Below, in pieces: positions 1-61,885 of a DNA stretch of 64,000 bases. The notes beneath the pieces are model-generated. The model was given only the letters and a program-made list of their open reading frames with translations, was not told where the DNA came from and ran no database searches. Made by a program: the position numbers and the translations under genes. The stretch comes from Arenicola marina (lineage: Eukaryota > Annelida > Polychaeta > Arenicolidae): NCBI GenBank assembly GCA_964019135.1, contig OZ025249.1, positions 33,121,759 to 33,185,758 of the forward strand, given 5' to 3'. Each line of letters begins with the position of its first letter. The first letter of the stretch is position 1.

Positions 1-67
1 CGCTCCATGCAATTGTCCTATTCTAGGGCGAAATATTTTGCCCCTGGCGTTTCGAACTTACGGGCCC
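1..67. mobile_element. Right half of a 108 bp foldback (MITE-like) element, cut by the window edge
   Basis: Positions 1-25 match the loop and 26-67 match the right arm of the foldback seen complete at 35304-35411. The arm ends in TTCGAACTTACGGGCCC. The left arm lies outside the window. The same site in the F2 and F4 segments (near 20120 and 53135) lacks it. Confidence 0.75.
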
Positions 68-600
68 AGGTCTTTCTGCGACCAGCGTAGGCGTCATCCC
101 AGGGGTCATGACATGACACGATGCTCTATCATTCATCATCTTCATTGACGCCGCATGACCTTGCTAGATATCAAATATCCTTCCCCAACCAGCTGCATGC
201 CGCCATATACTTACATACCGCCGTAGTGGTGGGCAAGCTCCCATTCATTACGGTGAACCTCCTCTCGATCCTCCGCGCAGCTCAGCTGGGTCCCCGAGCA
301 ATCATTTATCAAAATGGCGGGCTAGATTCTCAATGTATTGATAGAGGAAATGTACGAAAACAGATATACATACCGCGACGCCTAGCGGTGGAATGGGTCA
401 AGTATGGAGATTGACTGTTGTTAAGGAAAGGAAACCGGATGTTGGCTTACGGGAACGCACGCGTTGGAGACCAGCGGGTGAAGCTAAGACAGATCCAGAA
501 TTTTCAATTATGTTAGGGGCCACTTTGGGTAACAGGAGGACTTCCATGAAACCTAAGGCGAGAAAGAGGAAGATGACATTTGGTATTGAAAAGGGCAGCG

Positions 601-745
601 ACATTTATCGTGACAAGAATCCTAACATTCATTGTAACATGATTCGTGACATTAATCGTGACACAATTCTTGACATTAATCGTGACACAATTCCTGATAT
701 TAATCGTGACACGGTTCATGACATTAATCGTGACATCATCTATAT
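601..745. repeat. 24 bp minisatellite, about 6 copies (F1)
   Basis: Imperfect copies of a 24 bp unit read as CGTGACACAATTCCTGACAT plus TAAT. The unit is 8 codons long, so a DINRDTIP-like frame stays open by chance. The arrays at 20640, 35957 and 53655 are the same satellite with different copy number. Confidence 0.9.
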
Positions 746-894
746 CACGTGGCGATTTACATTGCGTAATAAGTTTGTGACACATTGAAGTGACACTCTT
801 AGCCCACCTCAGCCATTGACGACACTTCACTGAAAGCGCTGGGTTCACCTGGCACAGTGGGTTCATGAATCTCCATCTCACCGTCTGGTTAAAT

Positions 895-1125
895 AATGAC
901 GTAAGGTCGCATACGGCAGTCACACGTCTGTCTGTGTAGTCTCAGCCATATAGATGGCGCTAGGGTGTCGGTATAAATCTCATCGATTGGGTCGTGTTTT
1001 TGTTATCTCTTGGGTAACAACTTGTAGCATTGGGCATCACTGAGACTGATTGGTGACGCCACGCGATTGTGACGCATAGCCGTGGCACGTGATTGAGTCA
1101 CGTGACTGTGTCACGGCGTGACTGG
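895..1125 (+). promoter_or_regulatory. Candidate regulatory cluster in F1: CRE-like site, CTCF-like core, TATA, E-box palindromes
   Basis: The sequence shows TGACGTAA at 897-904, TAGATGGCGC at 951-960, TATAAAT at 972-978, CACGTG at 1086-1091, the palindrome GTCACGTGAC at 1097-1106 and GTCACGGCGTGAC at 1110-1122. TAGATGGCGC and TATAAAT recur with the same spacing in F2, F3 and F4. CACGTG is the classical bHLH-zip E-box. A promoter role is inferred from motifs only; no downstream ORF supports a gene. Confidence 0.3.
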
Positions 1126-1372
1126 CGCCTGGAATCTATCTTGTCCGGAGTTTTTTAAACACTTTTTAGCATTTTTGTATGTAATTTTCTGTCGGTTCCA
1201 GCGTTGGTTGTGGGGGTCTGTAAATGGTTTGTCGTGGACCAATACGTTGTCAGCATGTCATTATTGCCTCAACCATACTTGATTTTTGCAGTAAATAGTT
1301 CCGGCTTTGTGTGCAAGTCATGCCCCGTCCCCGCTCCATTTGATGATTCCTTTAGACCAAGAGATTCAGAAC

Positions 1373-1494
1373 ATCGCGACATCGGGAAGGCGGTGCGGAG
1401 ATGGTTTCAGGCAAGCGCCGTGTCTGGCTTACAACGCGGGGGGGGGGGCGGGTGGTGGGGGTGAAATCCGGGGATGGAAACATGACTGATATCA
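1373..1494. other. Left flank of GC minisatellite, type shared only with unit 4
   Basis: The stretch from about 1380 to 1490 matches 60585-60700 (shared words gggaaggcggtg and ctggcttacaacgc) and not the flanks of the GC minisatellites at 27600 or 40400. It includes a poly-G run at 1439-1448. It marks a recombination joint between F1 and a unit-4-type G segment. Confidence 0.7.
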
Positions 1495-4233
1495 GCACTG
1501 AGGCCAGGGCTGTGGCCAGGGCTGCGGCTGAGGCTGAGGCCGGGGCTGAGGCCGGGGGTTGGGGCCGAGGCCGGGGCTGAGGCCGGGGGTTGGGGCTGAG
1601 GCTGGAGCTGAGGCCGGGGGTTGGGGCTGAGGCCGGGGCTGAGGCTGAGGCTGAGGCCGGGACTGAGGCTGAGGCCGGGGCTGAGGCAGGGGCTGAGGCC
1701 GGGGCTGAGGCCGGGGCTGAGGCCGGGGCTGCTGGCAGCTGAGGCCGGGGGTTGGGGCTGAGGCCGGGGCTGAGGCTGAGGCTGAGGCCGGGACTGAGGC
1801 TGAGGCCAGGGCTGAGGCAGGGGCTGAGGCCGGGGCTGAGGCCGGGGCTGAGGCTGGGGCTGCTGGCAGCTGAGGCCGGGGGTTGGGGCTGAGGCTGAGC
1901 CCGGGGCTGAGGCCGGGACTGCTGGGAGCTGAGCCCGGGGGTTGGGGCTGAGGCCGGGGCTGGGGCTGAGGCCGGGGCTGAGGCCGAGGCTGAGGCCGGG
2001 GCTGAGGCTGAGGCTAAGGCCGGGGCTGAGGCCGGGGCTGAGGCCGGGGCTGAGGCCGGGGCTGAGGCCGGGGCTGCTGGCAGCTGAGGCCGGGGCTGCT
2101 GGCAGCTGAGGCCGGGGGTAAGGGCTGAGGCCGGGGCTGATGCCAGGGCTGAGGCCGGGGCTGAGGCCGGGGCTGAGGCCGGGGCTGAGGCCGGGGCTGA
2201 GGCCGGGGCTGCGGCCGGGGCTGCTGGCAGCTGAGGCCGGGGGTAAGGGCTGAGGCCGGGGCTAAGGCCGGGGCTGCTGGCAGCTGAGGCCGGGGTCCGG
2301 GCTGAGGCAGAGGCTGAGGCCGGGGCTGAGGCCGGGGCTGAGGCCGGGGCTGAGGCCGGGGCTGCTGGCAGCTGAGGCCGGGGCTTGGGGCTGAGGCTGA
2401 GCCCGGGGCTGAGGCCGGGGCTACTGGGAGCTGAGGCCGGGGGTTGGGGCTGAGGCCGGGGCTGGGGCTGAGGCCGGGGCAGAGGCCAAGGCTGAGGCCG
2501 AGGCAGAGGTCGGGGCTGAGGCCGGGTTGAGGCCGGGGCTGAGGACGACGCTTAGGCCGAAGCTGAGGCCGGGGCTGAGGCCGGGGCTGAGGCCGGGGCT
2601 GCCGGGGCTGAGGCCGAGGCTTAGGCCGAGGCTGAGGCCGAGACTTAGGCCGAGGCTGAGGCCGGGGGGGCTGAAGCCGGTGCTGAGGCCGGGGCTGCCG
2701 GGGCGGCTGGGAGCTGAGGCCGGAGCTGAGGCCGGTGGGTGGGGCTGAGGCCGATGGGTGGGGCTGAGGCCGGGTCTGAGGCCGGGGCTGAGGCCGGGGC
2801 TGAGGCCCGGTCTGAGGCCAAGGCTGAGGCCGGGGCTGAGGCCGGGGCTGCTGGGAGCTAGGCCGGGGGTTGGTGCTGAGGCTGGGGCTGGGGCTGAGGC
2901 CGGGGCTGAGGCCGGGGCTGAGGCCGGGGCTGAGGCCGGGTCTGAGGCCGGGTCTGAGGCAGGGGCTGAGGCCGGGGCTGAGGCCGGGGCTGAGGCCGGG
3001 GCTGAGACCGGGGCTGAGGCCAAGACTGAGGGCGAGGATGAGGCCGGGGCTGAGGCCGGGGCTGAGGCCGGGGCTGCCGGGGCTGCTGGGAGCTGAGGCC
3101 GGGGTTTGGGGCTGAAGCCGGGGCTGGGGTTGAGGCCGGGGCTGAGGCCGGGGCTGAGGCCGGGGCTGAGGCCGGGGCTGAGGCCGGGGCTGAGGCCGGG
3201 GTGTGGTGAGGCCTGGGCTGAGGCCGGGGCTGAGGCCGGGGCTGAGGCCGGGGCTGAGGCCGGGGCTGAGGCCGGGGCTGCTGGCAGCTGAGGCCGGGGC
3301 TTGGGGCTGAGGCTGAGCCCGGGGCTGAGGCCGGGGCTACTGGGAGCTGAGGCCGGGGGTTGGGGCTGAGGCCGGGGCTGGGGCTGAGGCCGGGGCAGAG
3401 GCCAAGGCTGAGGCCGAGGCAGAGGTCGGGGCTGAGGCCGGGTTGAGGCCGGGGCTGAGGACGACGCTTAGGCCGAAGCTGAGGCCGGGGCTGAGGCCGG
3501 GGCTGAGGCCGGGGCTGCCGGGGCTGAGGCCGAGGCTTAGGCCGAGGCTGAGGCCGAGACTTAGGCCGAGGCTGAGGCCGGGGGGGCTGAAGCCGGTGCT
3601 GAGGCCGGGGCTGCCGGGGCGGCTGGGAGCTGAGGCCGGAGCTGAGGCCGGTGGGTGGGGCTGAGGCCGATGGGTGGGGCTGAGGCCGGGTCTGAGGCCG
3701 GGGCTGAGGCCGGGGCTGAGGCCCGGTCTGAGGCCAAGGCTGAGGCCGGGGCTGAGGCCGGGGCTGCTGGGAGCTAGGCCGGGGGTTGGTGCTGAGGCCG
3801 GGGCTGGGGCTGAGGCCGGGGCTGAGGCCGGGGCTGAGGCCGGGGCTGAGGCCGGGTCTGAGGCCGGGTCTGAGGCAGGGGCTGAGGCCGGGGCTGAGGC
3901 CGGGGCTGAGGCCGGGGCTGAGACCGGGGCTGAGGCCAAGACTGAGGGCGAGGATGAGGCCGGGGCTGAGGCCGGGGCTGAGGCCGGGGCTGCCGGGGCT
4001 GCTGGGAGCTGAGGCCGGGGTTTGGGGCTGAAGCCGGGGCTGGGGTTGAGGCCGGGGCTGAGGCCGGGGCTGAGGCCGGGGCTGAGGCCGGGGCTAAGGC
4101 CGGGGCTGAGGCCGGGGCTGAGGCCGGGGCTGAGGCCGGGGCTGAGGCCGGGGTGTGGTGAGGCCTGGGCTGAGGCCGGGGCTGAGGCCGGGGCTGAGGC
4201 CGGGGCTGAGGCCGGGGCTGAGGCCGGAGCTGA
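1495..4233. repeat. GC-rich 12 bp minisatellite G1 (GAGGCCGGGGCT)n with a 916 bp higher-order duplication
   Basis: About 2.7 kb of the 12 bp unit GAGGCCGGGGCT and variants, broken every few dozen units by GCTGGCAGCTGAGG-type spacers. Positions from about 2368 to 3284 recur at about 3284-4200 with a constant 916 bp offset: three separate variant landmarks (2527/3443, 2758/3674, 2870/3786) agree. Every unit carries GGGG and one CpG, so G-quadruplex formation and dense methylation are plausible. Because 12 is a multiple of 3, GAEA, RPGL and APAS-type frames are open on both strands without being genes. Confidence 0.95.
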
Positions 4234-5056
4234 AGCCGAGCCGTCAGCCTTCGTAACCTCATTGCGCTTTCCCTTTATATCTCGATCGTCTTGGACGTCT
4301 AAATAATGAATAATTATATAACTGTTGGTGGTTCGCTTTTTCTCTGTCCTTTGACCGTGGCGCACCCTGAGCCAGGGCGTGGACTACATGAACAATAAGA
4401 GCTTTTGAGGGGAAGTTCGATGCGTCTGTGGGGTGACAGACGTTGGACATGGCGGAGCCATTGGGTTTTAAGAACCAATATACCGCATGGTGCGGATGTA
4501 ATAAGGCCTTCATTGGCTTCACCAGCCGCTGCAGGAATCGGTTAATCGGGTTGAACAATGGTTTTACCTCCCAGTTTGTGAAATTTTGCGTAGACATAGT
4601 CTGACATGAAGTTACGTTTCCCTACTGATTCGATTCCGATAGCACATCGAAAGGATGTCAGCATATCTGAAATATTTCCCTTTGATTGGTTATATGGTTG
4701 GTACCTCGAAATTACATCTGTGGCTCGCAAACGCAGTTGTCTGGCATTGTCACGTGTGTTTCGGATGTGCCATTGTCACGGTTAACTTAGGTCGTTATGA
4801 GACTCCACCACAATGTAGGAATGGGCGCAGAGGTGATGTGGGTGGTCCATGTCCAAAATACTAACGAGGGTGGGTGGGGCGGGATGGGGATTGGCGGTTT
4901 GTTGTCGGCTTGGCAAGCACAACAGACCGGCATGACGAGTCGATCAATATCTGGAAAGCCAAGAAAGCTGGCAGGATATTTTACCAATTGTTCGCGCTTT
5001 ATCGCTAACATTTGTATTCAACGTCCAACACAAAACGAGATTTACCTCTGCTCTAT

Positions 5057-5059
<3 letters not shown>
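4234..5059. repeat. Segmental duplication H, copy 1
   Basis: Non-satellite flank directly after the GC minisatellite, collinear with 28114-28925, 41193-42015 and 61109-61885. H1 and H3 are the closest pair. ORFs of 69 aa (+) and 112 aa (-) are open here but are broken or lose their start in H2 and H4, so I do not annotate them as genes. Confidence 0.9.

Positions 5060-5089
<30 letters not shown>
5060..5089. repeat. (TA)n microsatellite, left side of the 7.5 kb insertion
   Basis: About 15 TA repeats. In units 2 and 3 the matching TA tract (28926-28951, 42016-42032) runs straight into GCGTGTGCACGCGTCATGAC. Here it is followed by private sequence, and the shared sequence resumes after a second TA tract at 12607-12632. 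Confidence 0.9.
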
Positions 5090-5382
5090 ACAATATAGAC
5101 GACATTAGGACAACGGCTGGAATTAGGTCAACCGGAGGGTATTAGGTCAACGGCGCTATATATCCCACTCAGCCATCGTTTTTGTGACTTTTTTTTTTAT
5201 TAATGTATTCATTTGGGCGTAATTAACTCTCAGGCCAATTATTATTCATTTCTGTTGCATATTAAAAGATATATGGTCGAGCGTTGTCCTAAGACCGTTG
5301 ACCTAAAACTGTTGTCCTAATGTCAAAAGTGTTCTACAACACAGACGACATTAGGTCAACAGGTTGACTTAATACCATATAT

Positions 5383-5665
5383 GTTTCGCGTTGTCTTAAT
5401 ACCGTATATATTTCGCGTTGCCTTAATACCGTATATATTTAGAGTTGCAATAATACTACGTTTCGCATTGCCTTGATACCGTAGATGTTTCGAGTTGCGG
5501 TAATACTACAGGTTTCGCATTGCCTTAATACCGCCTATATTTCGCGTTGCGTTAATACCGTAATGTTTCGAGTTGCGTTAATACTACAGATTTCGCATTG
5601 CCTAGCATATATTTCGCGTTGCCTTACTACGGTATAAGTTTCGGGTTGCCTTAATACCATATAGA
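5383..5665. repeat. 27 bp tandem repeat (TTTCGCGTTGCCTTAATACC...), about 11 diverged copies
   Basis: Units start TTTCGCGTTGCCTTAATACC followed by GTATATA, with alternating variants TTTCGAGTTGCGTTAATACTAC. The array lies just inside the left end of the 7.5 kb block and shares the GTTG...TTAA core with the terminal words. Confidence 0.8.
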
Positions 5666-6054
5666 ATTATGATCTAAATTAACACGATTTTAATCATTGA
5701 TTATAATCTTTATACCAGGCCCAAGCCGGGGAGACAATTGATACGACTATCGTGTAAGTCTTGTACGTCAGAATTATGTAAGAGACTGCGCATTATAAAT
5801 CCGAATACTATAGCAAAAACAATTATGATGCATCAACAAGATGTATTTATCAAATTTTGATCATTGTCTGAAATGTGAGGTTCACGGCAGTGAGGTAATA
5901 AATCTGAGGGCAAGCAGATACAACAATACATGGATTAGAGTATTAGAAATTGAAACTTTTATTTCTTCCTGTTCCAGAATATGGAAATAATGCAATTAAC
6001 ATGATAGAAGATAATATAGCATTATAGCGTATCGTGAGTTCGAGAATACGGAAG

Positions 6055-7770
6055 CGGGATGATCGAATACCCCGGTTCGTACGCCTAAGGTATTCCTGCC
6101 TGCTGCCCCCACCCCCCTGCACCCGCCACCGCTTCCTACGCCAAATGTACTCCTGTCTCCTGTCCCCCATTCCTTCGCCTAAAACACTCCTGCGTCCTAC
6201 CGTCCCCCGCCCCCGGTCCCTACGCCTAAAATACTCCAGCTTCCTACCCCCCCGCCCCCCCAAACCAGTTCCTGGTTCTTACGCCTAAGATACTCCGGCT
6301 TCCTGGAACCCTCTCGATTCTTAGCCTATCATACTTGTCCTTCCACCCCCCCCCCCCGCTTCACCCTCCCAGGCCCTCCGGCTCCGCCGATTCGTATGCC
6401 TGCTTCTGCCCCCCCCCCCCCCTCCACCCCATCCCCCGTTCAAACGCCTATAAGCCACTCCTGCCTCCTGGCCCCCGGTTTCTAAGCCTAAGGTACCCCT
6501 GGCTCCTGGCCTCCCGATTCCTACGCATAAGATACCCCTGTATCATAGACCCCCGGTTCCTACGCCTAAGATATTCATGCCTCCTGGCCCCCCGGTTTCT
6601 ACGCCTAAGATACCCCTGTCGCCTGGGCCCCCGGTTCCTAAGTGTAAGACACTCCTGCCTCCTGGCCCCCGGTTCCTAAGCCTAAGACACTCCTGCCTCC
6701 TGGCCCCCCGGTTCCCACGCCTAAAAGACACACTTGCCTCCTGGCCCCCGGTTTCTACGCCAAAGATACGCCTGCCTCCTGGCCCCCTGGTTTCCACGCA
6801 AAAAACACTCTTGCCCCCTAGCCCCCCGGTTCCCACGCCTAAAAGACACACTTGCCTCCTGCCCCCCCGGTTTCTACGCCAACGACACTCCTGCCCCTTA
6901 GCCCCCCGGTTACTACGCCTAAGATACGCCTGCCTCATGGGCCCCCGGTTCCTACACCTAAGATACGCCTGCCTCCTGGCCTCCCAGTTTCTACGCCTAA
7001 GATACCCCTAGCTCCTGGCCCCCCGGTTCCTACGCAAAAGACACTCATGCCTCCTGGCCCACCGGTTCCAATGCAGAAGATACGCCTGCCTCCTGGCCCC
7101 CGGTTCCCACGCCTAAGATACGCCTCCCTCCTGGCCCCCCGGTTCCTATGCCTAAGATACTCGTAGCTCCTGGCCCCCCGGTTCCTACGCCAAAGACACT
7201 CATGCCTCCTGGCCCACCGGTACCTATGCCTGAGATACGCCTGCCTCCTGGACCCCCGGTTCCTACGCCTAAGATACCCCTGGCTGCTGGCCCCCCGGTT
7301 CCTACGCCAAAGACACTCATGCCTCTTGGTCCTCCGGTTTCTACGCCAAAGACACTGCTACCTCCTGGTCCCCGGTTCCTACGCCTAAGATACGCCTGCC
7401 TCCTCGGACTCCAGTTCCTACGCCAAAGACACTCATGCCTCCTGGTCCCCCGATTCCTAAGCCTAAGATACCCCTGGCTCCTGGGCCCCCGGGGTTCTAC
7501 GCATAAGATACGCCTGCCCAATAGCCCACCGATTTCTATACTTAAGATATACTCCTGCCTCCTGGCCCCCGGTTTCCACGCCTATAAGTCCCTCCTGCCT
7601 CGTGCCTCTCCGGTTCCTAGCTACGCCTAAGATATATTGCTGCCTCCTGGCCCCCTGGTTGCCCCGCCTAAGATACGCCTCCCTCTTGGATCCCCGGTTC
7701 CCACGCCTAAGATATACTCCTGCCCCCCCCCCCCCGGTTCTCACGCCTAAGATACGCATCCCTGCTTGCT
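6055..7770. repeat. 39 bp C-rich minisatellite, about 40 copies
   Basis: The unit is close to CCTCCTGGCCCCCCGGTTCC followed by TACGCCTAAGATACGCCTG. Thirteen codons per unit keep several frames open (PPGPPVPTPK-type on +, GVGTGGPGG-type on -). Frames change between units because poly-C runs vary, which argues against coding. This satellite occurs only inside the 7.5 kb block. Confidence 0.9.
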
Positions 7771-8643
7771 GATACCACGGGCGGATGGACATATACCACT
7801 GGACGCCCACTGGGTCAGACAATATATCATAAGAAATACCATGAACAGAATAAGTTTGAACTTTAACGGGGAACACGTAGTATGTACATCAAAGGTGTAG
7901 GGAATCAAAATATGACTGTATGCATACATCCTTAAACATTAAATATATTCATCATGCATACAGATTGATATTGATATTGTAGATATATTGCGCCGCGAAT
8001 AACGCCATCCGTCGCCCGGCATCTTCGACCATCGGGTGTATATGCCCTCTCCTTCAAAAGAAAATACCCGAACATCAGGAGCACGGACATTAAAAGTGCC
8101 AACGTCATGGCGAAAACTATAGAGACTGATTAATTTTTAACAGAAACCAATTTTATTAGCATAGCTTCGATTCCACCTCATTTAAGTACTGCCTCCTGCC
8201 CGTTTGATTGGTATACTTATCATCGTACGTTCTTTTCATGACGATCGAGATACGAGTTCGCCATTTTAGTTTATTACATCAGTATAGCCTAGTCTAAAAC
8301 CTATCATATCAGTATACATAAGCACCTCAGGCACTTAATTTAAGCTGCCAAAACATTTATAAGCTTATACAAAATTCAAACGCTGAATTGCACAAGCGCT
8401 TCCCAGCTTTCAGAATGAAGTTTTCACGATGCCATATAAAACGTTTGATTAAGGTTTGATCAATATACATATGAATATCCTCCATTGCTAAACACAACGA
8501 ATATGTACAAACAGAATGAATAGAAAAATTCCACAGAGGTGGCCGATTTTAATACAATTTTTTTTAATTGGCCAAGAAAATTAAGTAGAATATATTGCAT
8601 CTCTGTTTATAGTTATCAATTATAATTGATATGTGCATTCGCA

Positions 8644-8687
8644 ACACATGATCAGGTTAAACACTAAAGTTTAACCTGATCATGTGT
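8644..8687. repeat. Perfect 19 bp inverted repeat with 6 nt loop
   Basis: Left arm ACACATGATCAGGTTAAAC at 8644-8662 and its exact reverse complement at 8669-8687, loop actaaa. It could be a foldback remnant or an RNA hairpin. Confidence 0.9.
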
Positions 8688-10741
8688 ATACTCTTAACAA
8701 CTGCTTCATATTAACATATATATTGCATTGCAGTCAATGTGTTAAGCCATCTGTGCATGGCAAGAATAACTGTTATGTGAAGACAATGTAATAAACATAT
8801 TCTTCTATAATAGAAATCCACAATGCACCTTAATGCACAACAAAAGTCAGTACTTGTGCAAGTTGTAATTTACAGTGATGGTTGTCAGGGTAACTTGTAG
8901 AGCTCGGGGGAAGGTCATTGGTCAAATCCATGAATCAATAAATTATAGTTTTTCGACATTAGTACAGATATAGTTAGAATGTAACCTATGTGCAATAATT
9001 AGTTAACTTTTAATATTAGTGGCATCAATTTATAGGTGGGGATTAATTATGACAAATTAATTGCTGCATTCACAAACTGGTGCATACTCAAATGGAAGAG
9101 ATTAAAACATGAATAAAAAGCTCATAGGGATCATCAGTCAGATCAGGAATTTGTGCAGTATGTAAATTGTTAAGAGAATGCTACTGTATTTGCAGTACCA
9201 GTACATCCTGTTAGGTACAGTCACAGTTAATTTGTGATAGCTTGTTCAGTTATAAGAATGTTGACAATTACATATGTTAATGCTCTACATGTTTTTAAAT
9301 TTATATGTCACCAGTTGTGCCTGCGGGACATAGGTTAATTATGTATGATTGAGATAACATTATGATTTATTGCAGCACAACATTTTTTAAATGATAGTTC
9401 TGGTTGTTACATTTGTTCCATAAACTTGATAACAATTGATTACATAAGGTATATATTTCAGTAAAGTATTATACAGATAATACTAACCAAAATACAATTG
9501 CATGATCTACTGGTTCCACAATTGTTTGAACATACAATGAACATGATAATTAAATTTAAAAATAAAATGATTCTGTGGATCGAATATGACAAAGGAGCTT
9601 AAGTTTGCAATATTACAAAAATACTCGGGAATAAGAGGTGTTCAAGAAAACTGTATATCTGCAACTATAAATCAAACTATATGCAATAATAACAATGAGA
9701 AATTAAGTCATATATATCTTGATATTGCATAACCTATATACAGGTTATTATTACTTGGTCTACTTTATCCATGTAATTTAATCCTTTATCTTTAATACCA
9801 TATCATTCACAGGAGATGTATGATTGTATGATTTCTCAATGGAAATTGTTATGAAACTTCTACATGGTAAATAATACCAAATTGTAAAGAAGATGTTCCA
9901 GTGCACATCATATATAGCAATTGCAATAACCCTAATAACATTAATAATATATGGCTACACAGCCAAATAATTGTGCTCCTTTAGGTCTGAACAAGAGATT
10001 CTTTTGGTTAGGTATTTGCAACAAAATTGTTCTGGTCTAGTTCAGGTACAGAAAGCAATGTTGGCCATCAAGACAACTTACACATGCTTTCGGACTTCAA
10101 CATGCCTATAATTAAGTTGCACACTACAGGCAAAAGACATTAATTATTCCTTTGAAGGGAGTCCTTTCCATTTATATCTCAGATTCTTTATGTGAATACC
10201 ATTATGACTGCAGGAGTGCATAATTTTGTTTTTAAATTGCAGTAAAATGATATTGATATAGGATCTAAGTATTATGATACATACTCATTACAATTATAAT
10301 TTTGTATTTATTAGTATACAATACTATCTTTTTTAATATATTGTTACCAGTGCATAAATGCATACCCAGTACTATTTGGTCATTTCACGCCTGCCAAATC
10401 AATTGTTTGTCTATAAAAACTTAGTCATATATAAAATATATTGCATTGTCACCTACAAAAATGCCCTTGCAATATTACAATCAGTTTAATCAACTTTATG
10501 TCAATTCATATTAAAAGCTGACAGTTTAGCTACTTTATCACCCACCCTAAATGGCCTAAAAATGACAGATTAATTAAACCGTAGTACTTAATTATTAGTA
10601 TTTACATATCCATCATACTGGCAGGCAATATCACTTGTACTTGATAAACGGATAAGGTTTAATGTCAAGCTCTGCTCAGTTCAGGTCTTAATTTAATTAT
10701 TAACTGATTTTTCCAAATTGTTGTATTACATGTCATAAGAA

Positions 10742-10848: not shown

Positions 10849-10954
10849 ATGGTATAGCCTATTTGTCAAATTAGTGATACAATCTATTTTCTTATTAATG
10901 GAATTAAAATTAGATGATCTTAGACATGACCAGATTGCAATAGCAAGCCCTGTA

Positions 10955-12599: not shown

Positions 12600-12606
12600 A
12601 TAGATC

Positions 12607-15768: not shown

Positions 15769-15800
<32 letters not shown>

Positions 15801-37690: not shown

Positions 37691-37740
37691 TTCCTCGGAG
37701 TCCTGTTGTGCCGGTAAGGACCTGCGGACCCTGAGCAGGC

Positions 37741-50418: not shown

Positions 50419-51503
50419 TATCATACGGCGCCCCAAGTCACCATACGGCGTCTCAAAGGCACCACACGGCGTCCCCAAAATCACCATACGGTGTCCATAA
50501 AGTCACCATACGGCGTCCCCAAGTCACCATACGTCATCCCAAACGCACCATAGGGAGTCCCAAATTCACCATACGGCGTCCCCAAGTCACCTAACGGCGT
50601 GTCTAACTCACCATAGGGAGTTCCCAAGTCACCATACGGCGCCCCCAGGTCACCATACGGCGTCTCCAAGTCACCATACGGCGTCTCCAAGTCACCATAC
50701 GGTGTCCCGAAGTCACCTTACGGTGTGTCCAAGTCACTAAACGGCGTCCCCAAGTCGCCATACGGCGTCCCCAAGTCACCATACGACGTCCTTAAGTCAC
50801 CATACGGCGTCCCCAAGTCACCATACGACGTCCCTAACTCACCATGCGGCTTCCCCAAGTCACCACATGGCGTCTCCAAGTTACCACACGGCGCGCCCAG
50901 GTCACCATACGGCGTCCCCAAGTCACCATACGGCGTGTCTAACTCACCGGCGGGAGTCCCCAAGTCACCATACGGCGCCCCAGGTCACCATACGGCGTCT
51001 CCAAGTCACTAAACGGCGTCCCCAAGTCGCCATACGGCGTCCCCAAGTCACCATACGGCGTCCTTAGGTCACCATACGGCGTCCCCAAGTCACCATACGA
51101 CGTCCCTAAATCACCATGCGGCTTCCCCAAGTCACCACACGGCGTCCCCAAGTCACCATGCGGCGTTCCCAAACCACCATACGGCGTCCCCAAGTCACCA
51201 TACGACGTCCCTAAATCACCATGCGGCTTCCCCAAGTCACCACACGGCGTCCCCAAGTCACCATGCGGCGTTCCCAAACCACCATACGGCGTCCCCAAGT
51301 CACCATACGACGTCCCTAAATCACCATGCGGCTTCCCCAAGTCACCACACGGCGTCCCCAAGTCACCATACGGCGTCCCCAAGTCACCATACGGCGTCCC
51401 CAAGTCACCATACGGCGTCCCCAAGTCACCATACGGCGTCCCCAAACCACCACACGGCGTCCCCAAGTCACCATACGGCGTCCCCAAGTCACCATACGGC
51501 GCA
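50419..51503. repeat. 21 bp minisatellite P3, about 51 copies, with a 105 bp higher-order repeat
   Basis: The longest P array. From about 51080 to 51360 a block of five variant units (105 bp, including CATACGACGTCCCTAAATCA and CATGCGGCTTCCCCAAGTCA) is repeated about 2.7 times. ORFs here are by-products of the 7-codon unit. Confidence 0.95.
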
Positions 51504-52870
51504 AATTCTCGTCCGGCTGTGGAATCTGCTTTGGATGCATCCAGTCACACCACATACGGGTTCCTACGTCAGACGACGCTTACCAGCGCCATCGCGGTGG
51601 GCGGACGAGTTGGTCACAATGATCGGCAATCTTATTCCCTTCATACAATATTCATGTGCCACCTTTATGGCGTAATTGTCAGTGCCTCGAGATCTAGGCT
51701 ACCACATCGGCTGCTTGACAATGGTCAAGGCCTTCACTGGCTTGTGGGCTTATCCCGTTCTTTACCGTAGTGTCATCGAATATAAATATATAGTAGAGAG
51801 AGAGAGAGAGATGTGAGAGTAAAAAGCAAGTCAGAGAAAGGAGGAGAGACAAAAAGACAGGGAGAGAGACAATACTCAATTAAGCAACATTTAGTTGCTG
51901 ACCACAATGTGACACTTAAAACAGAAGTAATAAGCTAAGGAGGGAACAGAATAATTGGCCACATGGTGTCTTCTCGTTCTTTCCATACCTCCCCCCCCCC
52001 CACCCTCCCCCGGGGGCATATACCGCCCGTTGGTCAGTTTCATGAGCCGCTCACGTGTCGACCCCCCCCACCCCTCCCACCACCCGAAACACCCCAAACA
52101 CGGCTGTCGTAGCACCAACAAGTCGTATATGGCAACAATATCTATAACTTGGTCTGTAAGATACGTACGGAAACCCGTTGGTGCCAGATAATCTGTAAAT
52201 AATACAGAAATGTCATCCCACCAACTTCCTTCCGTAGTAAGAGGATGATGCACAGATGAAACCCATACAGATGAAGCCCTGAACATGAACAAAGAACTAC
52301 ATTTTGTAAAACTCTTATCGCGGCAAAAAAAAGCCTACTTAATGCCCGTCGTGACCCCTGTTATATGACATAACAGGATTAACATTAATGTCGTCCGGTT
52401 CCCCGGCAGCAGACCGCTGGAGCAGCCAAAGCAACGTTCTTCGCAGTCGCTTGGCTGAATCCAGAAAGATCACGACTCTGACATTTTAAGTGCAAAGTGT
52501 CTCGCTGATATCAGCGGCATCATGTACCTCCCCCTACCTTTAGGTGTGACTGTATCTCACAAAGGGTAATCATACCTTCTGACGACCTAATGAGATGTGT
52601 GCTTATGACACTGAGCAATGTAATAAACATAATTATGTATTAGCCAATTGTACCGCGTGTGTAATCGGTGTGGCAATGGTAGGGAACGAAGTGAACGCTA
52701 TTCAGAAAACAGAAGAAAAAAAACATGAAATCAACGGAATTATGTAGGAACGTTGGGCACTGAGCTCAACAGATAGGGTGACAAACTATAAGGATGTTGA
52801 CCTGAAAGTGACCGCCTGTCCACAACCACGTGCGTGCAAGTCCATACCCAGGGTTCTGGACGGGCGGGGT
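51504..52870. repeat. Segmental duplication Q, copy 3, then private sequence
   Basis: 51504-52190 is collinear with Q2. The (TA)n of Q2 is only a short TATAAATATATAG here, and poly-C is at 51991-52000. About 52200-52870 has no counterpart in the window and shows no ORF of 60 aa. Confidence 0.8.
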
Positions 52871-53654
52871 CCAGTGTCGATTTAAAAAAATTCTAAGCGT
52901 CGAATGTCGATTTTGTAGCCCATTTTGTGTCGTTTTTTTTTTCTTCTAAATTGTCATTACTTGTGTCGATGACGCTTTCAGATCCTCAGTGTCGGAATTT
53001 GGGCGTCAATGTCGATTGTCGACCGTTGACGACCAGGGCTCCTCTGGTGACCGGATGTGGATGGGCGGGAGCAAGAAGCTACCGTCGCGAGGTTCCCCAA
53101 ACCGCCCGGTGGTTAGCACACACGGTTTGTTAAGCTTCCATGTCTTTCTGCGACCAGTGTAGGCGTCATCCCAGGGGTCATGACATGACACGATGCTCAA
53201 TCATCCATCGTGTTCATTGACACCGCATGACCTTGCTAGATATTAAAGTGTCCTTCTCCAGCCAGCTGTATACGGCCATACACCTCTATACCGACGTACT
53301 GGTGGGCTAGCTCCCATACGTTACGGTGAACCTCCGCTCCTAGGCTCAGTTCAGCTGGGTCCTCCGGCAATCAGTTATAAAAATGGAGGGGCTTAACTCT
53401 CAATGCATTGATAGAGGATATATAGATATACATACCGCGACGCCTAGCGAAGGGATGTGTCGATGATGGAGATTGACTGTTAAGGGATCCCGGATGTTGG
53501 CTTACAGAGTTTGAGACCAGCAGTGAAGTTACGACAGATTCAGGATTTTCAACGTTGTTGGGGGCCATTTTGTTTAACAGATAAAACCTAAAGCGAGGAA
53601 AATGGAGGGGCCACACCTTAAATGATATTTAGGATTGAAAAAGGGTAGCCTCAA

Positions 53655-53990
53655 CATTTATCGTGACACGATTCCTGACATTAATCGTGACACAATTCCT
53701 GACATTAATCGTGACACAATTCCTGACATTAATCGTGACACAATTCCTGACATTAATCGGGACATACTTACTGACATTAATCGTGACACAATTCCTGACA
53801 TTAATCGGGACACATTTACTGACATTAATCGTGACACAATTTCCGACATTAATCGTGACAAATTCCTGACATGATTCGTGACACAATTTCAGACATTAAT
53901 CGTGACACGATTTCTGACATTAATTGGGACACAATATCTGACATTAATCGTGACACGATTTCTGACATTAATCGTGATATAATCGTGATG
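53655..53990. repeat. 24 bp minisatellite in F4, about 14 copies
   Basis: Expanded as in F2. Confidence 0.92.
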
Positions 53991-54391
53991 ATTTACATCA
54001 TGATAAGTTTGTGACACATTTCGGGACATGAAGTGACACCCTTAGCTCACCTCAGCCATTGACGGCACTTCGCTGACAGCGCTGGGCTCCTCTGGCACAG
54101 TGGTCCCATACATCTCAATCTCACCGTCTGGTTAAATAATGACGTAAGGTCGCAAAAGCTGATGATACCCACGGACCAATACAATCCCTGACTTACGTGT
54201 GTAGTCGGACAAAAGGAGTTTAACATTTTAGGACCTGTCCCACCCGACGTCCCGAACACATGTCTATGTGATGAAGGTGCTAAACCTTGTCTCCGGTGTG
54301 GTCTTAACAATCTACGACTTACTTTCGCTTCTGCCGTTACGGGCTTTACGTTTACGGCAGTCACACGTCTGTCTGTGTAGTCTCAGCCTCA

Positions 54392-54419
54392 TAGATGGCG
54401 CTAGGGTGTCGGTATAAAT
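54392..54419 (+). promoter_or_regulatory. CTCF-like core plus TATAAAT in F4
   Basis: TAGATGGCGC at 54392-54401 and TATAAAT at 54413-54419. The E-box GTCACGTGAC is kept near 54524. Confidence 0.3.
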
Positions 54420-55499
54420 CTCACCGATTACGTCGTGTTCTCGTTATCTCTTGCGTAAAAACTTGTAACATGGGGCAGCACTGAGACTGATTGGTGGCGC
54501 CATAGCCGATGCACTTGACTGAGTCACGTGACTGTGTCACGGCGTGACTGGCGCCTGGAATCTATCTTGTCTTTTTTTTAACACTTTTTAGCATTTTTAT
54601 ATGTAATTTTCTGTCGGTTCCAGCGTTGGTTGTGGGGGTCTGTGGATGGCGTGTCATGCACCAATATGATATCAGCATGTCAGTAGTGCCTCAACAATTC
54701 TTGATTTTTGCAGATACAGCCACAGACCCGGGGCTAACTTCCCCCCGCGGCTGTCTCCCCAAATGGAAGCCCTCGTAACTCCTGCGATAGCACGCTGACC
54801 TTCAGACCAAGAGATTCACCTCCTATCGCTCGTCTTCTCGACCTTTATCCCATTGTTCCCCGTGGATGGCCCATGTGTACACAGAGCTGGCATAGAACGT
54901 GAATCTATGCCGCCCCCCGATTTCAGCCAATATCAATGGGAACACGATGAAAGCACCGAGTCGTGTTTCATTCAGTCTTTCCCTGCGTGTGGCCGCCAGG
55001 AGGCAGAAATCATTGGTGCAGCGGTGGCATTAACTGGCGAGGCACGAGGGAATGGTATATATTATTAACATCGAAAGACTGGCGGTTACAATTGCTTTTT
55101 GTGGTCAGTCGCTCGCAGTAATCCAGTCCACGCCTTGTCTGCATCGCGGTAAATGCATCAACACTCAGCCTCACAACCCACTCTGATTCGCTGTCATTCC
55201 GTCATATTTGGACACGTTTGGCTACCAGACAACCGTTCCGTCTCTCTCAACCACCCAGTCGCAACCATGGCGACCCCTTCACCCGCCACGGAAAGAGACA
55301 CCTGCATGGATGCATATACCAGGCACTTTATCCTCATTTCCATCTCTCTATCTCTCGCTCTTTCTTCTATTTTTTTTTCGTTCTTCTTTCTCTTTCTGTT
55401 ACGGTGTTGCATTCGCCAGCTAATATATCTAAATATTGTAACCGGCCACTAACCGCCGGAAAATCGATAATAAATGTCACTATATCTTGCAGGCCAAAT

Positions 55500-55690
55500 T
55501 AAGTGTCAGTCAGTGTCGAATGTCAACTTTTCATGACGTTCCGTGTCGCTTTTTGGCTAGGTTTAGTGTCGTTTTTTTAAAAATCTGTGTCGCTGTCGCT
55601 TTTTAAGATCCTCAGTGTCGGAATTCGGGGGTCAATGTCTAATGTCGATTTTTCAAATATGCCCGTGTCGCGTGGTGCCATTTACGTCTT
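55500..55690. repeat. GTGTCG-rich dispersed repeat after F4
   Basis: Matches 23485-23638 with GTGTCGCTGTCGCTTTTTAA and continues with AATGTCGATTTTTCAAATAT, also seen at 19931. Confidence 0.8.
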
Positions 55691-55784
55691 CCAGACCTGT
55701 CCGTGTAACGCCGCCCGAAGAATAAAGTAAATCAAACACTAAGTACGAAGAGACCAGTTGTTCTTTTCTGTGCGTTGCTAGACT

Positions 55785-55930
55785 TAGCTAGGCCAGCCCA
55801 AAGGCCCGGTACGTGGTTCGAATCCCATCTGTGTACATGTTTATGCAGGATCCTTCAGCACAGAGAGTAGGGGAGTATTCCCCGCTCCTCCCTGCCTTGA
55901 CTCGTCCCAATGCCGCGATCTAATGCATAC
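55785..55930 (+). mobile_element. Degenerate tRNA-derived SINE, copy in unit 4
   Basis: Near-identical to 37528-37690. Confidence 0.6.
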
Positions 55931-55989
55931 TTCTAGTGTTTCCTCGGAGTCCTGTTGTGCCGGTAAGGACCTGCGGACCCTGAGCAGGC

Positions 55990-56061
55990 GGTCATTATTT
56001 TCCCAGAGCAGGTCATTATAGTTCCGTCACAATAATGACCCACACAGGGAAAATAATAACC
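55990..56061. repeat. Nested inverted repeat, copy in unit 4
   Basis: Same 72 bp structure as at 37741-37812; both pairs are preserved. Confidence 0.85.
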
Positions 56062-56519
56062 AGGTGCTTACGTGTTACGTGTGCCATGTGTTGTACCAGA
56101 TTGTTCTTCATATGACACATGTTATAACGTGCAGTACACCAAAATGACCCACAAACAACTACGGATTCACGGACAAAATACTTTTTAATAAACACTATAC
56201 AGGCCTACACAATATCCATGCCTTGCTATGCAACATATATTGCTTGAATCGAAGCATACGGATCCCCCCATGAACGCTTATTACTGAATTCACTATTGTT
56301 CACGTTTGGTTCTCAGTTGCGCTGGAACCAGATCTGAATTTTCTTTTTGGGGGTTTATATGTGAAGGTTTTGGCATTTGACGCCACTGCCCCTGTGCCAT
56401 GTTCCCCTTTCTCGACCCGAGGCTCTTGCAATTATAAAATTCACGTTTCTTTCTAACGATCATGCGTTTCTAAAAACGTCTTCGTGAATTTAGCTGCAAA
56501 CGTCAGTATTGTCCTTAAG

Positions 56520-56780
56520 CGTCACCTCATGGCCTAGTAGATAGCTTTTCGGCTATTGTCAGGTGTCTCCTGCTAGGCCAGCCCAAGCTGGCGGTGCGTG
56601 GTTCAAATCCCACCTGTGCAAATCTCAATGTTTGTGCAGGATAAAGATTCCATGCGTTTCTTCTAAAACAGTACGCGGTCACACAGAAGACAAAGCTCCT
56701 CTTTTAATTGATCCTTCCCATTGTCGCAAAATGACTTCTGCTACATAGGTTAAAGCGTCATTAAAATAAATTAAATTAAA
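56520..56780 (+). mobile_element. tRNA-derived SINE with TTAAA tail, copy in unit 4
   Basis: B box GGTTCAAATCC at 56600-56610 fits the consensus. The tail is (ATTAAA)n at about 56757-56780. Confidence 0.75.
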
Positions 56781-56931
56781 CTGTGTTGTAGGCCGCTTTT
56801 GTACATATAAGGGTTAAACTGTGCGAAGGAACCCCCAGGGACAGTGAAGGATGAATGGACGAAAGAGGCTTAAATGAGGATTCGAACCTGGGACCCATTG
56901 GTCTGCGGTAAAGCGCGCTAATCATTACAGC
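56781..56931 (-). mobile_element. tRNA-derived SINE, minus strand, copy in unit 4
   Basis: Paralogue of 38531-38681; again head-to-head with the next SINE. Confidence 0.7.
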
Positions 56932-57172
56932 AGGGTTAGAGCGCTCGCCTTGAGTGCTCTGGCCGCCTGAGAGCCTAACGGCGCGTGGATCGGTGGTTCA
57001 AGCCCCGCTGTGGCCATATCTGTGTGGTCGCAGGATAAAGATCCCATACCCTTCTTCGTAAAGAGTAGGGGGTTACCCCTTTGGACATGACTCCCCTCTT
57101 CCTTCCTTCTCCCATTGACGCGATGTGATCAAAAGTGGTTAAAGCGTCCTGAATATGCAAACAACCAACCAA
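56932..57172 (+). mobile_element. tRNA-derived SINE with (CCAA)n tail, copy in unit 4
   Basis: Paralogue of 38682-38932 with a weaker B box (GGTTCAAGCCCC). Confidence 0.8.
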
Positions 57173-59215
57173 CATAACATATTAAAGTTGATCAAGCCCC
57201 CTCTCCCTACTCCCCCCCCCCCCTCCCCTCTCGCTATCACGCTCACTCCATAGGGGCGTGTTCGTTTTACATGAAACCGGTTTGCTGAACCGACTGTTCG
57301 ACAAGAGAAGAACCGAAACCGGTTTGGTCGAAACCGTTCCGCGGAACTGTCAGTTCAATCAACACATACACTATAGTTAATCATAAATGTTATGAATAGA
57401 GACTTATTGACAAAAGTATGACACAGATTTATTTATGGACAGTCCAATCGCGGGTAGAAAATGAAACAGATGGCATATTTATTCTGGCATAACTTTATAA
57501 GCACATGGCCATTGCCAACATACATGATGAAACTGTAAACAAATGAAACTATGCGTTCGCGTTTAGGTGGGCAAACCGCTGAAACCGGTTTCGGTTTCCA
57601 GACGGTTTCAGGTAAATCGAACACAGCCTAGATCGCACGCGTCTCTCCAATGAATGTTATCCAACAGCTCCCACGATATTATATATTGTCAATATTATTT
57701 CCCATTGCTAGGAAGACTCACAACTGACAATGGCTGTAGATTATCTTACGCCTCGGTTAATATTATCTCGTGAACCGCATTTCGGGATCGAGGTCATTAT
57801 TCTGTAGTTCTAGGGCGCAAGAGCAGCGAAAACAGAAGGCTGGTGGAGGAATAGAACGATCCAGGTTGGAAATTGACAACCATAGCTGATGGTAGGTACA
57901 AGTGAGAAGTACTCATTTCTGAAAGTAACAAGGAAGTGACATGCTGCTTTGTTTGTCCGACTTGTTCGTCGGACATAACGTACATGGAAGACATTTTTCA
58001 CCGCATGATTGGATAAAAGCAACATTGACGTCAGCGAATGATTGACAGCCTGGATAGGTCTATTGATTAGCAGAGGTTGTGTTTGTTTGCAATGACTGGA
58101 TTTCACGGCTGCGGGAAGTACGGGTCGTAAGCAGCCAGCCTATACCAATGGCGCCTAAGCCTTACTGCATGTTGGTCGCCATACAGTGGATTTAGTTCGG
58201 GAGACAGCGCTCACCCTTAGACTGAGGCTTGTTACTTCCTGTACACATTACGTCCACTTAGTGGGTCCTCTATAGTGGGAGAGATGGTCCCTCTCGTCTG
58301 ACTCCCCTCAGAACCCCCACTCCCCCCCACCCCCGGAGCCAGTAAGCCATCACCACCCCTAACATTGAGAGATGTGAAATGCCAATTATGCCCATGAGTA
58401 GCGCTCTATACCGACTGCTAACGACTTACTTCCATCGATTACTTGGGGCCAGGGGTACAGGCAACGCGGACGTCTTACTAATGAGGTTGGACCCCGAAGA
58501 ACATGCCATGTTCCGGCGCCTGCAGCTTGTAAGCAAATCATGGCCGTTACATTTAAGGACGGGTCCTGGAATTTTGAAATTGGTGAGGTGTGTTTATATT
58601 GGGACATTTCCAGTGGAGTAAAAATAAACTTTCAAGGCAACATGTCGTTCCAATTTCGCAGAAAAAAACTATTTCTAGTCTAATTTAAATCCCGACTTCC
58701 TACGTTCCTTATTAAGCGGTTTAATCATAGGCTCCCCATATTTTCCCATAGGCTCATGATTGGTCACCAAAGCGGAAGAATTCGGTCCGCGACGGCGCCT
58801 TCTAGCGCTGACACCAAGTGCATGTATCCTGGGCTAACAACGAAGGCAAAACACCAACCGAAGTCAACAGTTCCCCAAATCTTTACCGTTCGGTGTCCCA
58901 GCGACATGACTAAGTGACTGGCGTCAATTCGAACTGTTAAGAGGCGCGACCCGACATCCCAGGTGACTCATCATGGGCGACCGAGCATGGGGGAGGGGGC
59001 GGGATCTTTCAAGCGTTATAGCCAAATCGTCAAAAAAAAACATCCGGCACTGACATTATTCTACGTCCAATTCCATATCAAGCACGAATGTCTCAATTAA
59101 TTTTGATTAAATTAAAAAAACATAAAATGCAACGTCACGCGAGGATGACCAACTTGAGAGAAATAGGCCGTTGATTTTCGTCCGTATTAAGTTGATAATC
59201 GTCATTAATAAGTCG
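57173..59215. repeat. Segmental duplication S, copy 4 (most diverged)
   Basis: Collinear with S2 and S3 but with many indels. It lacks the TTAGGG tract near 58073 and has a 380 bp MITE-like insertion (57251-57630) and about 400 bp of extra sequence at 58790-59160. Confidence 0.85.
57251..57630. mobile_element. 380 bp MITE-like element with about 27 bp terminal inverted repeats
   Basis: Left end TAGGGGCGTGTTCGTTTTAC pairs with the right end, which reads TAGGCTGTGTTCGATTTACC on the minus strand. TGAAACCG continues both. The interior is rich in AAACCGGTTT palindromes. S2 and S3 lack it. Ends of the TAGGG type with GTGTTCG recall hAT MITEs, but no 8 bp target duplication is visible. Confidence 0.75.
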
Positions 59216-60580
59216 TTCCTAATTGCGTAGCCAAGCAACTTTTGACACTAAGGCCAGATCACTACCTGCAAACGCTATTGTTGGCTTGGTGACCGGCGGC
59301 ATGACTTCTAAGGTAGCTGCGATTTGGCAATTTGGGTCTGCGGTAGAGAACACTACCTCGCGACCACGGCGGATTCCATAAAAAAGCAAATCGGTAATCG
59401 AAATTAAGCTTGGCACGACTTAAATTCTTGGTCAAATGTCAAGAGAATTTGGAACGACTTTGGTTTTCACGATGTTGTAAACCGAGCACCGTAGCATTCA
59501 AAAAGAGGGGTGCCACTAAAATGAGGAAGCAATGAGGGTTGCATGACAAAAGTTCATGGCTCACCTGAATGAGGGTAGGATTAACAATATAAAGGGGACT
59601 CCTCTCTCGCACGGACGGGGGAGGGGGGTGGGGGCGATATTGGACGCATCGGCCCCCTCCTCCCCCTCCCTGCCCACTCTGTCAGCACATACCCTCCGTT
59701 TGCTGCCACAAATGATCTAGATTAATTACTTCATTGTGTCCGATAATTACAGCGATCATTAACTAAACCGCGAATTAGTCGCAGATCGAGTGTCATCCTC
59801 GCAGTATGTCATCGAAAAACAGGTCAACTAAACAATCTCTTTCCTAATGTGTTTCTCTGAAAACAGTTTGTGGGTGGCTAGCAGCCACCGGTCGCATCCT
59901 GTAAACATATATATTGCGAAAGGAACTTGCCTAGACCATCTCTTTTTTTGAGTTGCAAATAAAATTATGCTTATAAGGTCAAACTCCTTCCATTTCCTGT
60001 TGCCATGGCCACGTGTTCGCGGGAACAAAACGTTTCATCAAATAGATCTACGTTTTCCGGACCAGCATTTTCCGAATTGCGTCATATGAAATTTCAAAAA
60101 AACGAAATACCCCAATGGTTTCTAAGTAAATATATATTTATATATATGGAGATAGAGATATTATATGAATTGCATTGTATGTTCGTCGTTGGCTCAGTGT
60201 AAGTAAGGCGCTTCAACAGGTATGATCCTGTGTCGATACCTGTCTAAAGGAATTATGCCGGCATGAGGGTGGCATCGTAAAGGGGATGAGAGGGGAGGGT
60301 GTCCCCATGCCCCCTACTCTGCGCACACAGAGATAATATCCGCAAGACACACTGTACATCACCACATGTGGGTCTTCCCACATGCACCCCACATCACGGA
60401 TTCGTCCTCACATACACAAGCGACAAGGACAGAACGCGCTAGCCACGAAATGAAATGACCGCCACAGCTGGAAACCTTTGGTATACTTCACACGGCGACA
60501 ACATGCAATAAACAGAGCGTATAACCAACATACAAGCCGTCCGTCTTCCGTTTTACGCCCAGACCATAATGCCAGAGACT
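59216..60580. other. Sequence private to unit 4 between S4 and G4
   Basis: No counterpart in the window. It contains (TA)-rich tracts near 60130 and a pyrimidine/purine stretch at 59610-59680. A 65 aa minus ORF at 59219-59416 (VVFSTADPNCQIAATLEVMP) reads like protein but is unrecognised. Confidence 0.6.
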
Positions 60581-61108
60581 GGAGACACCGGGAAGGCGGT
60601 GTGGAGATGTTTTCAGGCCAACGCCGGGCCTGGCTTACAACGCCGGGCGGGGTGGGGGGAGGGCGGGGTGAAATCCGGGGTTGGGAACATGATTGAAATT
60701 AGCACTGAGGCCGGGGCTGAGGCCGAGGCTAAGGCCGGGGCTGAGGCCAGGGCTGAGGCCGGGGCTGAGGCCAGGGCTGAGGCCGGGGCTGAGGCCGAGG
60801 CTAAGGCCGGGGCTGAGGCCGGGGCTGAGGCCGGGGCTGAGCCCGGGGCTGAGGCCGAGGCTAAGGCCGGGGCTGAGGCCAGGGCTGAGGCCGGGGCTGA
60901 GGCCAGGGCTGGGGCCGGGGCTGGGGCTGGGGCTGAGGCCAGGGCTGAGTCCGGGCCTGAGGGCAGAGCTGGGAGCTGAGGTCGGGGCTGAGGCCGGGCC
61001 TGAGGGCAGAGCTGGGAGCTGAGGCCGGGGCTGAGGCCGGGGCTGAGGGCAGAGCTGGGAGTTGAGGACGGGGCTGAGGCCTGGGCTGAGGCCGCGGCTG
61101 AGGCCGAA
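60581..61108. repeat. GC-rich 12 bp minisatellite G4 with left flank
   Basis: The left flank 60585-60700 matches unit 1. The satellite itself (60700-61108) has more GAGGCCAGGGCT and GAGGCCGAGGCTAA variants. Confidence 0.93.
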
Positions 61109-61885
61109 CCGTCAGTCTTCCTAACCCCATTGCGTTTCCCTTTATATCTCAATCGCCTTTCACGTCTAAATAACGAAAAATTATATAACTGTTGGGGCTT
61201 CGCTTTTTCTCTGTCCTTTGACCGTGGCGCCCCCTTGGCCAGGGCGTGGAATACATGAACAAGTAACAGTGTCTGTGTGCTGACAGACGTTGAACATTGC
61301 AGAGACATTGGGTGTATGAACCGATACACCGCATGGCGGGGATGCAATAAGGTCCTGATTGGCATCACGAGCTGCCTCAGGAATCGGTCAATCGTGCTGA
61401 ATAATGGTCGAAAGTTGTGCCTCCTAGTTTGTGAAATTTTGCGTCGACATAGTCTGACATGAAGTTACGTTTCCCTACTGATTCGATTCCAATGGCAAAT
61501 CGAAAGGATGTCAGCATATCTGAAATATTTTCCTTTGATTGGTACCTCGAAACTACACATGGGGCTCGCAAACGCAGTTGTCTGGTATTGTCACATGTGT
61601 TTCGGATGTGCCATTGTCACGGTTAAGGTCGTTATGAGACTCCACCACAATGTAGGGATGGGCGCAGGGGTGAGGTGAGAGGTTCATGTCCAAAATACTA
61701 ACGAGGGTGGGTGGGTGGAGTGGGGTGGGGTGGGGTGGGGTGGGGTGGGATTGGCGGATTCTTACCGGCTTGGAAAGCACAAACAGAAGGGCGTGACGAG
61801 TCGATCGAGTTTTGAAAGCTAAGAACGCTGGCAGGAAATTTTACCAATTGTTCGCACATTATCGCTCACATTTGTACATCAACGT
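61109..61885. repeat. Segmental duplication H, copy 4 (most diverged, end of array)
   Basis: Collinear with H1-H3 with several indels and a (GTGGG)n expansion at 61707-61750. Similarity stops after CAACGTCCAACACAAAACG. Confidence 0.88.

Follow-up and report, generated by a model that had tools for sequence, protein, structure and literature searches.

Tandem segmental duplications consist of adjacent blocks of more than 1 kb in the same orientation, with 90% identity as the usual cut-off, and in the ribosomal DNA intergenic spacer a single tandem unit includes several independent subrepeat arrays. For macrosatellites, PMC3081327 gives units of 1-12 kb, places most arrays at one or two chromosomal locations and describes unit number as polymorphic in the population; in the same source, the monomers of one such array, DXZ4, hold three microsatellites. 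Here we analyse a window, the 64,000-bp stretch C2:33,121,759-33,185,758 of the 867-Mb, 762-contig Arenicola marina assembly, together with 100 kb added on each side (264 kb in all). A first-pass annotation of the window had described a macrosatellite-like array of four units, each bearing five minisatellites and no gene. No title or abstract opening found in the literature describes this array, which is not proof that it is unpublished. All inference presented here draws on the sequence of this single assembly. The COX1 frame on its contig C762 contains internal TGA codons, and judging by contexts in other animals AAA would be read as Lys, ATA as Met and AGA as Ser, a tentative argument against an echinoderm or vertebrate source.

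Self-comparison of the window, used together with Tandem Repeats Finder to define minisatellite and repeat anatomy, reveals head-to-tail units whose common segments lie in a single order and orientation, as the first-pass annotation had proposed. After tandem-repeat masking, 73 of the 76 self-matches of at least 60 bp in the window are in the same orientation and three are inverted, and nearly all of the 73 connect equivalent segments of different units with their order kept. The array is complete once the flanks are added: unit homology runs from near window -10,077 to 61,898, placing the start of the first unit about 10.1 kb left of the window, and outside these edges the flanks share only dispersed repeats with the units. 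Within limits that we set, and on which the lengths depend, unit 1 (U1) spans window -10,077 to 5,060 (15.1 kb, its right part being 1-5,060 of the window), unit 2 (U2) 12,634-28,924 (16.3 kb), unit 3 (U3) 28,950-42,010 (13.1 kb) and unit 4 (U4) 42,032-61,898 (19.9 kb, its right end the most diverged), all in the + orientation. The earlier count of four units stands; the sizes given with it, 13-24 kb, give way to a measured range of 13.1-19.9 kb, and the stretch 5,090-12,606 is part of no unit and corresponds to an inserted mobile element. Minisatellites included, the share of sequence matched in one or more other units is 97% for U1, 79% for U2, 99% for U3 and 79% for U4, and the share matched in all three others is 70%, 47%, 60% and 41%, respectively. 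The array contains no N run; across the whole 264 kb the sole one, of 200 bases, occupies window +155,501 to +155,700, beyond the array.

The annotation had also asked for a search of the assembly with unit segments. An 800-bp segment that follows the 12-bp minisatellite has four matches in the 867-Mb assembly, all in the array (4/4 candidates scored); a 1,066-bp segment has six, namely the four units, with U3 in two pieces, and 52 bp on C10; and a 464-bp segment has three (3/3), in units 2-4. All 62 assembly matches to a dimer of the 21-bp repeat at up to three mismatches fall within the array. A dimer of the 12-bp repeat at up to one mismatch yields 157 assembly matches; of the 100 listed, the array accounts for 96, and the remaining four lie on C2 (one, at 57.5 Mb), C6 (two) and C11 (one). 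Across the whole assembly, the unit-specific segments searched are confined to C2:33.11-33.18 Mb but for the 52-bp C10 match. Self-comparison and assembly search together show tandem units, all at one place, in support of the proposed four-unit array.

In its architecture the locus resembles macrosatellites such as DXZ4 and D4Z4, with a large tandem unit at one place and internal short repeats that vary between units. Set beside PMC3081327, its single location falls within the one or two described and its units are head-to-tail, four in number, but at 15.1, 16.3, 13.1 and 19.9 kb they exceed the 1-12 kb range; the label macrosatellite-like thus holds for architecture and fails for unit size. 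The head-to-tail arrangement, single locus, exchanging units and internal tandem repeats would suit a true macrosatellite, polymorphic in copy number, with a chromatin role like that of DXZ4 or D4Z4 and represented here by a short allele. We nevertheless judge this very unlikely, given units of 13.1-19.9 kb, only four copies, unit-specific insertions and a uniformity far below that of the 18 DXZ4 monomers, which are at least 99% alike in PMC3081327. The array works like a small macrosatellite in recombination, and it is not classed as one because unit size was compared and falls outside the range.

As in tandem (intrachromosomal) segmental duplications, the array is kilobase-scale, head-to-tail, confined to a single locus and marked by mosaic exchange, its adjacent same-orientation blocks exceed 1 kb, and its transposons are both common to copies and private. 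It differs in that, although many unit blocks are 90-98% identical, others reach only 72-87%, and in that no gene is established. Since parts of the units fall below the 90% cut-off, the array seems older than the typical catalogued segmental duplication. The ribosomal DNA intergenic spacer is similar in its tandem unit holding several independent subrepeat arrays; the present array differs from it in being not homogenised and in having no Rfam or rRNA match in the window.

The three internal joins, U1/U2 (minus the inserted element), U2/U3 and U3/U4, are nearly alike, each comprising a fixed sequence, an (AT)n run and an identical start of the next unit. The (AT)n runs lie at 28,925-28,949 between U2 and U3, with flanks nearly as at the other two internal junctions, and at 42,011-42,031 between U3 and U4. 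The outer edges of the array are without about 23 bp plus the (AT)n (right) and about 72 bp (left) of the internal join. This extra of about 95 bp plus (AT)n is not predicted by a plain one-step duplication; judging from the joins, either the outer edges would have been lost, or the filler of the first duplication would later have been copied with the array.

Identity between units ranges from 72 to 99% in matched stretches and from 78 to 98% in 500-column blocks, a block divergence of 2-22%. Outside tandem repeats, all four units are represented in 5,273 columns, which yield 205 informative sites, of which 137 group U1+U3 against U2+U4, 50 group U1+U2 against U3+U4 and 18 group U1+U4 against U2+U3; the sites lie in long runs, and the favoured pairing switches between blocks. 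In the region of the 24-bp minisatellite, U1-U3 and U2-U4 are 95.8% and 95.2% alike, versus 82-85% across these pairs. At 25.0-26.5 kb, by comparison, U2 and U3 are 94-98% alike, with U4 at 75-92% to both depending on the stretch; 37,520-38,985 is common to U3 and U4 alone; and the right end of U4 is an outlier, 81-89% identical to the other units. As these alignments indicate, the units are mosaic, the closest pair changing along their length, which is how tandem copies look when they exchange sequence and the end unit is less homogenised.

The pairing of U1 with U3 and of U2 with U4 in part of the unit, clearest in the 24-bp region and favoured by the 137 sites, could also arise if the haplotypes, U1-U2 and U3-U4, of a locus with two units had been stacked in series by misassembly, which the first-pass annotation had named as grounds for rejecting the array. 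The pairing fails, however, at 25.0-26.5 kb and at 37,520-38,985 and does not extend over the full length; no unique flank lies between U2 and U3, whose join is like that of U3 and U4; the array is without a gap; and its block divergence is mostly above the usual divergence between alleles. Because the identical internal junctions have no unique flank, such stacking is disfavoured on sequence grounds, and with the mosaic pairing we consider it extremely improbable.

The 7.5-kb element (5,090-12,606, +) sits inside the (AT)n of the U1/U2 junction and outside any unit. Its 8,100-11,700 portion occurs at no fewer than 13 places at 96% identity or more over at least 3.3 kb, window copy included (40 of 2,551 candidates scored). 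One copy, on C4, is 99.2% identical in an alignment with 5,054-12,633, and the 5' end of the element (5,090-5,362) is found at 29 assembly places (29/29 candidates scored). In all five copies examined, the 5' end meets an (AT)n-like tract followed by differing sequence; the 3' end meets such a tract in four of the five, and the fifth sequence ends where the tract begins. On this evidence it is a recent mobile element that inserted into the U1/U2 junction. The 17 copies of the 5' end at 97% or above (window copy included) are found only on contigs C1-C6 or C19; several lie a few Mb apart, as if spread were mostly intrachromosomal. No frame of at least 130 aa was found in the element outside its minisatellite zone (about 6.2-7.9 kb). 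Minisatellites of 27 and 39 bp are present in it, and TTAGGACAACG-like motifs lie close to its two ends.

Other insertions lie within the units. A LINE fragment (42,784-44,480, end approximate, +), found in U4 only, retains a reverse-transcriptase remnant and a poly(A) tail and is flanked by near-identical repeats of about 16-17 bp recognised by eye; the sole Pfam hit of the analysis, a sub-threshold reverse transcriptase match (E 0.016) in 42,715-43,143, belongs to it. A SINE-like dispersed repeat, so labelled by size and dispersal only, lies at 14,288-14,775 and also in U1 and U4, and is found elsewhere in the assembly (40 of 2,581 candidates scored), as is a repeat near 25,402-25,663 (40 of 3,929). 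A further dispersed repeat of about 240 bp is present in U3 (38,683-38,920) and also in U4, and stretches around it have 72-81% matches on other chromosomes (40 of 6,562 candidates scored). Telomere-like interstitial TTAGGG repeats occur at an equivalent place in U2 (25,674-25,714, six perfect copies) and U3 (39,467-39,505, three) and were not seen at that place in U4. In the right flank, frames at window +134,780 to +139,180 resemble an LTR retroelement remnant (zinc-knuckle and integrase-like, labelled by eye).

Five minisatellites occupy fixed relative positions in the units (Tandem Repeats Finder, with the left part of U1 taken from the flank), which confirms the earlier report of 24-, 12-, 20-, 20- and 21-bp repeats at fixed places, each with its own copy number. 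Three units show the 21-bp array and both 20-bp arrays inside the window, the fourth copy of each lying to the left of it. Copy numbers, counted over the main stretch of each array and given for U1/U2/U3/U4, are 43/32/28/10+21 for the first 20-bp array (16,648-17,283, 31,419-31,973 and 47,414-48,234 in U2-U4), 24/9/16/15 for the second 20-bp array (18,357-18,736, 32,972-33,564 and 49,304-49,899) and 24/27/16/51 for the 21-bp array (19,280-19,843, 34,143-34,468 and 50,422-51,501). The 24-bp array has 6/14/6/14 copies (600-736, 20,639-20,981, 35,957-36,097 and 53,654-53,977 in U1-U4) and the G+C-rich 12-bp array about 230/29/66-69/34 (1,498-4,238, 27,603-28,108, 40,397-41,190 and 60,705-61,106), all of these coordinates being on the + strand. 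The first 20-bp array of U4 is split by a 192-bp insert (47,619-47,810) that is 99.5% like a copy 90 kb rightward, and the 12-bp array of U1 contains an internal duplication with an offset of about 0.9 kb, 89% alike.

Comparison of identity within and between arrays bears on their age. In the first 20-bp array, adjacent repeats are 72-75% alike, and whole-array identity between units is 96.4% for U2-U3, 92.0% for U3-U4, 91.7% for U1-U3, 90.4% for U1-U2, 90.3% for U2-U4 and 86.1% for U1-U4; since identity between units exceeds that between neighbouring repeats, this array predates the duplication. The 24-bp array aligns at 95.6% between U1 and U3, and these identities show both arrays to be older than the duplication. 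In the other three arrays (12-bp, 21-bp and second 20-bp), identity in alignments between units (77-90%) is close to that of alignments within an array, so these arrays have turned over since the duplication. The case for their earlier presence therefore draws on common position, period and consensus, by which these arrays, too, probably predate the duplication. With two arrays older than the duplication, the others probably so, and a neighbourhood rich in minisatellites, a unit holding several independent tandem arrays needs no special mechanism.

Tandem-repeat content in 10-kb blocks across the 264 kb ranges from 1 to 100%, and at nine small loci elsewhere, chosen by repeat match and not at random, it is 12.8% of 31,046 bases. 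The left flank holds a 64-bp minisatellite of 285 copies (18 kb, window -55,029 to -36,801), with 57-bp (136 copies) and 43-bp (131 copies) minisatellites near it, and a 74-bp tandem repeat (12 copies, 93% matches) lies directly outside the array at 62,064-62,951. The right flank contains two arrays of a 232-bp repeat, at window +127,094 to +130,726 and +142,222 to +147,813, which are oppositely oriented judging by their consensus units.

The claim that the units hold no gene stood as far as it was tested, with one weak candidate to set against it. Positions 1 to 61,900 contain 71 stop-to-stop frames that reach 85 aa or more outside tandem repeats; 23 frames were compared with Pfam, and none has a match above the cut-off. 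Scans of the window, outside which the left 10 kb of U1 lies, found no tRNA and no Rfam RNA (rRNA included), leading us to set aside an RNA-gene reading, and no Rfam match appears at E up to 1 in the 15.7-17.8 kb core described below. The candidate is a minus-strand frame of 75 codons at 18,737-18,961 (U2), 33,568-33,792 (U3) and 49,900-50,124 (U4), and of 82 codons at window -3,613 to -3,368 (U1). The frame is uninterrupted in each of the four units, U1 differing by a 3-nt indel, and is absent outside the array (four assembly matches; 5/5 candidates scored).

A codon-position scan of all frames gave 32, 31 and 36 of 521 windows at positions 1, 2 and 3, and a control with one frame per strand gave 21, 25 and 22 of 333. 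The 75-codon frame has the strongest third-position signal, p 6.8e-5 over 521 overlapping windows, a value in which every difference from U4 is counted and U4 changes enter up to three times. With each change counted once, 8, 4 and 18 of 448 windows reach p < 0.05 at positions 1, 2 and 3, and the best windows in the frame give p 0.01 or 0.008; over its 67 comparable codons, changes number 8, 6 and 15 at the three positions (p 0.031). Significance is lost once the 448 windows are allowed for. The dN/dS values of the six pairs are 0.68, 1.13, 0.20, 0.46, 0.42 and 0.16. On these alignments the frame ranks first among the gene candidates, though its coding signal is weak.

Such a frame, unique to the array, with position 3 leading (18 versus 8 and 4) and with a splice-acceptor-like polypyrimidine tract and AG just upstream in U4, is what might be expected if an undetected gene, its exons small or fast-evolving, were clustered here in tandem, with the minisatellites in its introns or at its ends. 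That reading appears improbable, as an in-frame stop lies between the acceptor-like site and the frame, the first ATG is replaced by a CTG-like Leu codon in U2, dN/dS spreads from 0.16 to 1.13, the frame has no Pfam (E up to 5) or PDB match, and 20 further ORFs gave only the sub-threshold reverse transcriptase hit. Two other coding candidates were rejected. Frames through the 21-bp array had a third-position excess in the initial scan that was equal on the opposite strand and driven by few variable sites (91 in-phase repeats, only 26 of the roughly 51 from U4 among them); the longest array, in U4, holds 3 to 26 stops in each frame, and frames past the array differ between units. Indels of 7, 10, 20 and 1 bp disrupt the repeated minus-strand frame that follows the 12-bp array, and that frame has no third-position excess.

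The sequence most alike in all four units is a core at 15,713-17,790 (mean pairwise identity 0.966-0.978), which surrounds the first 20-bp minisatellite and is more uniform than the remaining unit, and constraint could account for this uniformity. We see a small chance that the array is under selection, either with the 75-codon frame as an orphan-gene exon or with this 2-kb core (15.7-17.8 kb) under DNA or RNA constraint. If the core were constrained, the minisatellites might serve as tunable spacers or protein-binding platforms, in the manner of DXZ4-like architectural arrays.

We conclude that the locus most probably arose by low-copy tandem duplication, at one place, of a transposon-bearing and mainly noncoding tract in which several of the minisatellites, and probably all five, were already present. 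Four head-to-tail units, a single place for the segments searched, near-identical internal joins and mosaic relations are observed. In the first duplication, a short A+T-rich filler that included an (AT)n run would have linked one end of the ancestral tract to the other; once the array was homologous, unequal crossing-over may have added units. Conversion or crossover between units could have produced the mosaic, with copies gained and lost independently in each minisatellite; size differences would reflect LINE, SINE-like and other insertions, together with the 7.5-kb element, which may settle in (TA)n tracts. Standing against this account are the internal-join extra of about 95 bp plus (AT)n, the three arrays whose identity between units about equals that within them, the more uniform 15.7-17.8 kb core, and the 75-codon frame open in all units, with dN/dS of 0.16, 0.20 and 0.42 in three pairs, though 1.13 in another.

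The locus looks like an ordinary, fairly old local duplication, for which ordinary mechanisms are sufficient; no new mechanism is called for, and no cellular function need be assumed. It provides a compact natural experiment in which five minisatellites, at matching places in four units, have changed independently, and relative minisatellite turnover can be read from one locus, from a 12-bp array that varies from about 29 to 230 copies to a first 20-bp array that is 86-96% alike between units.
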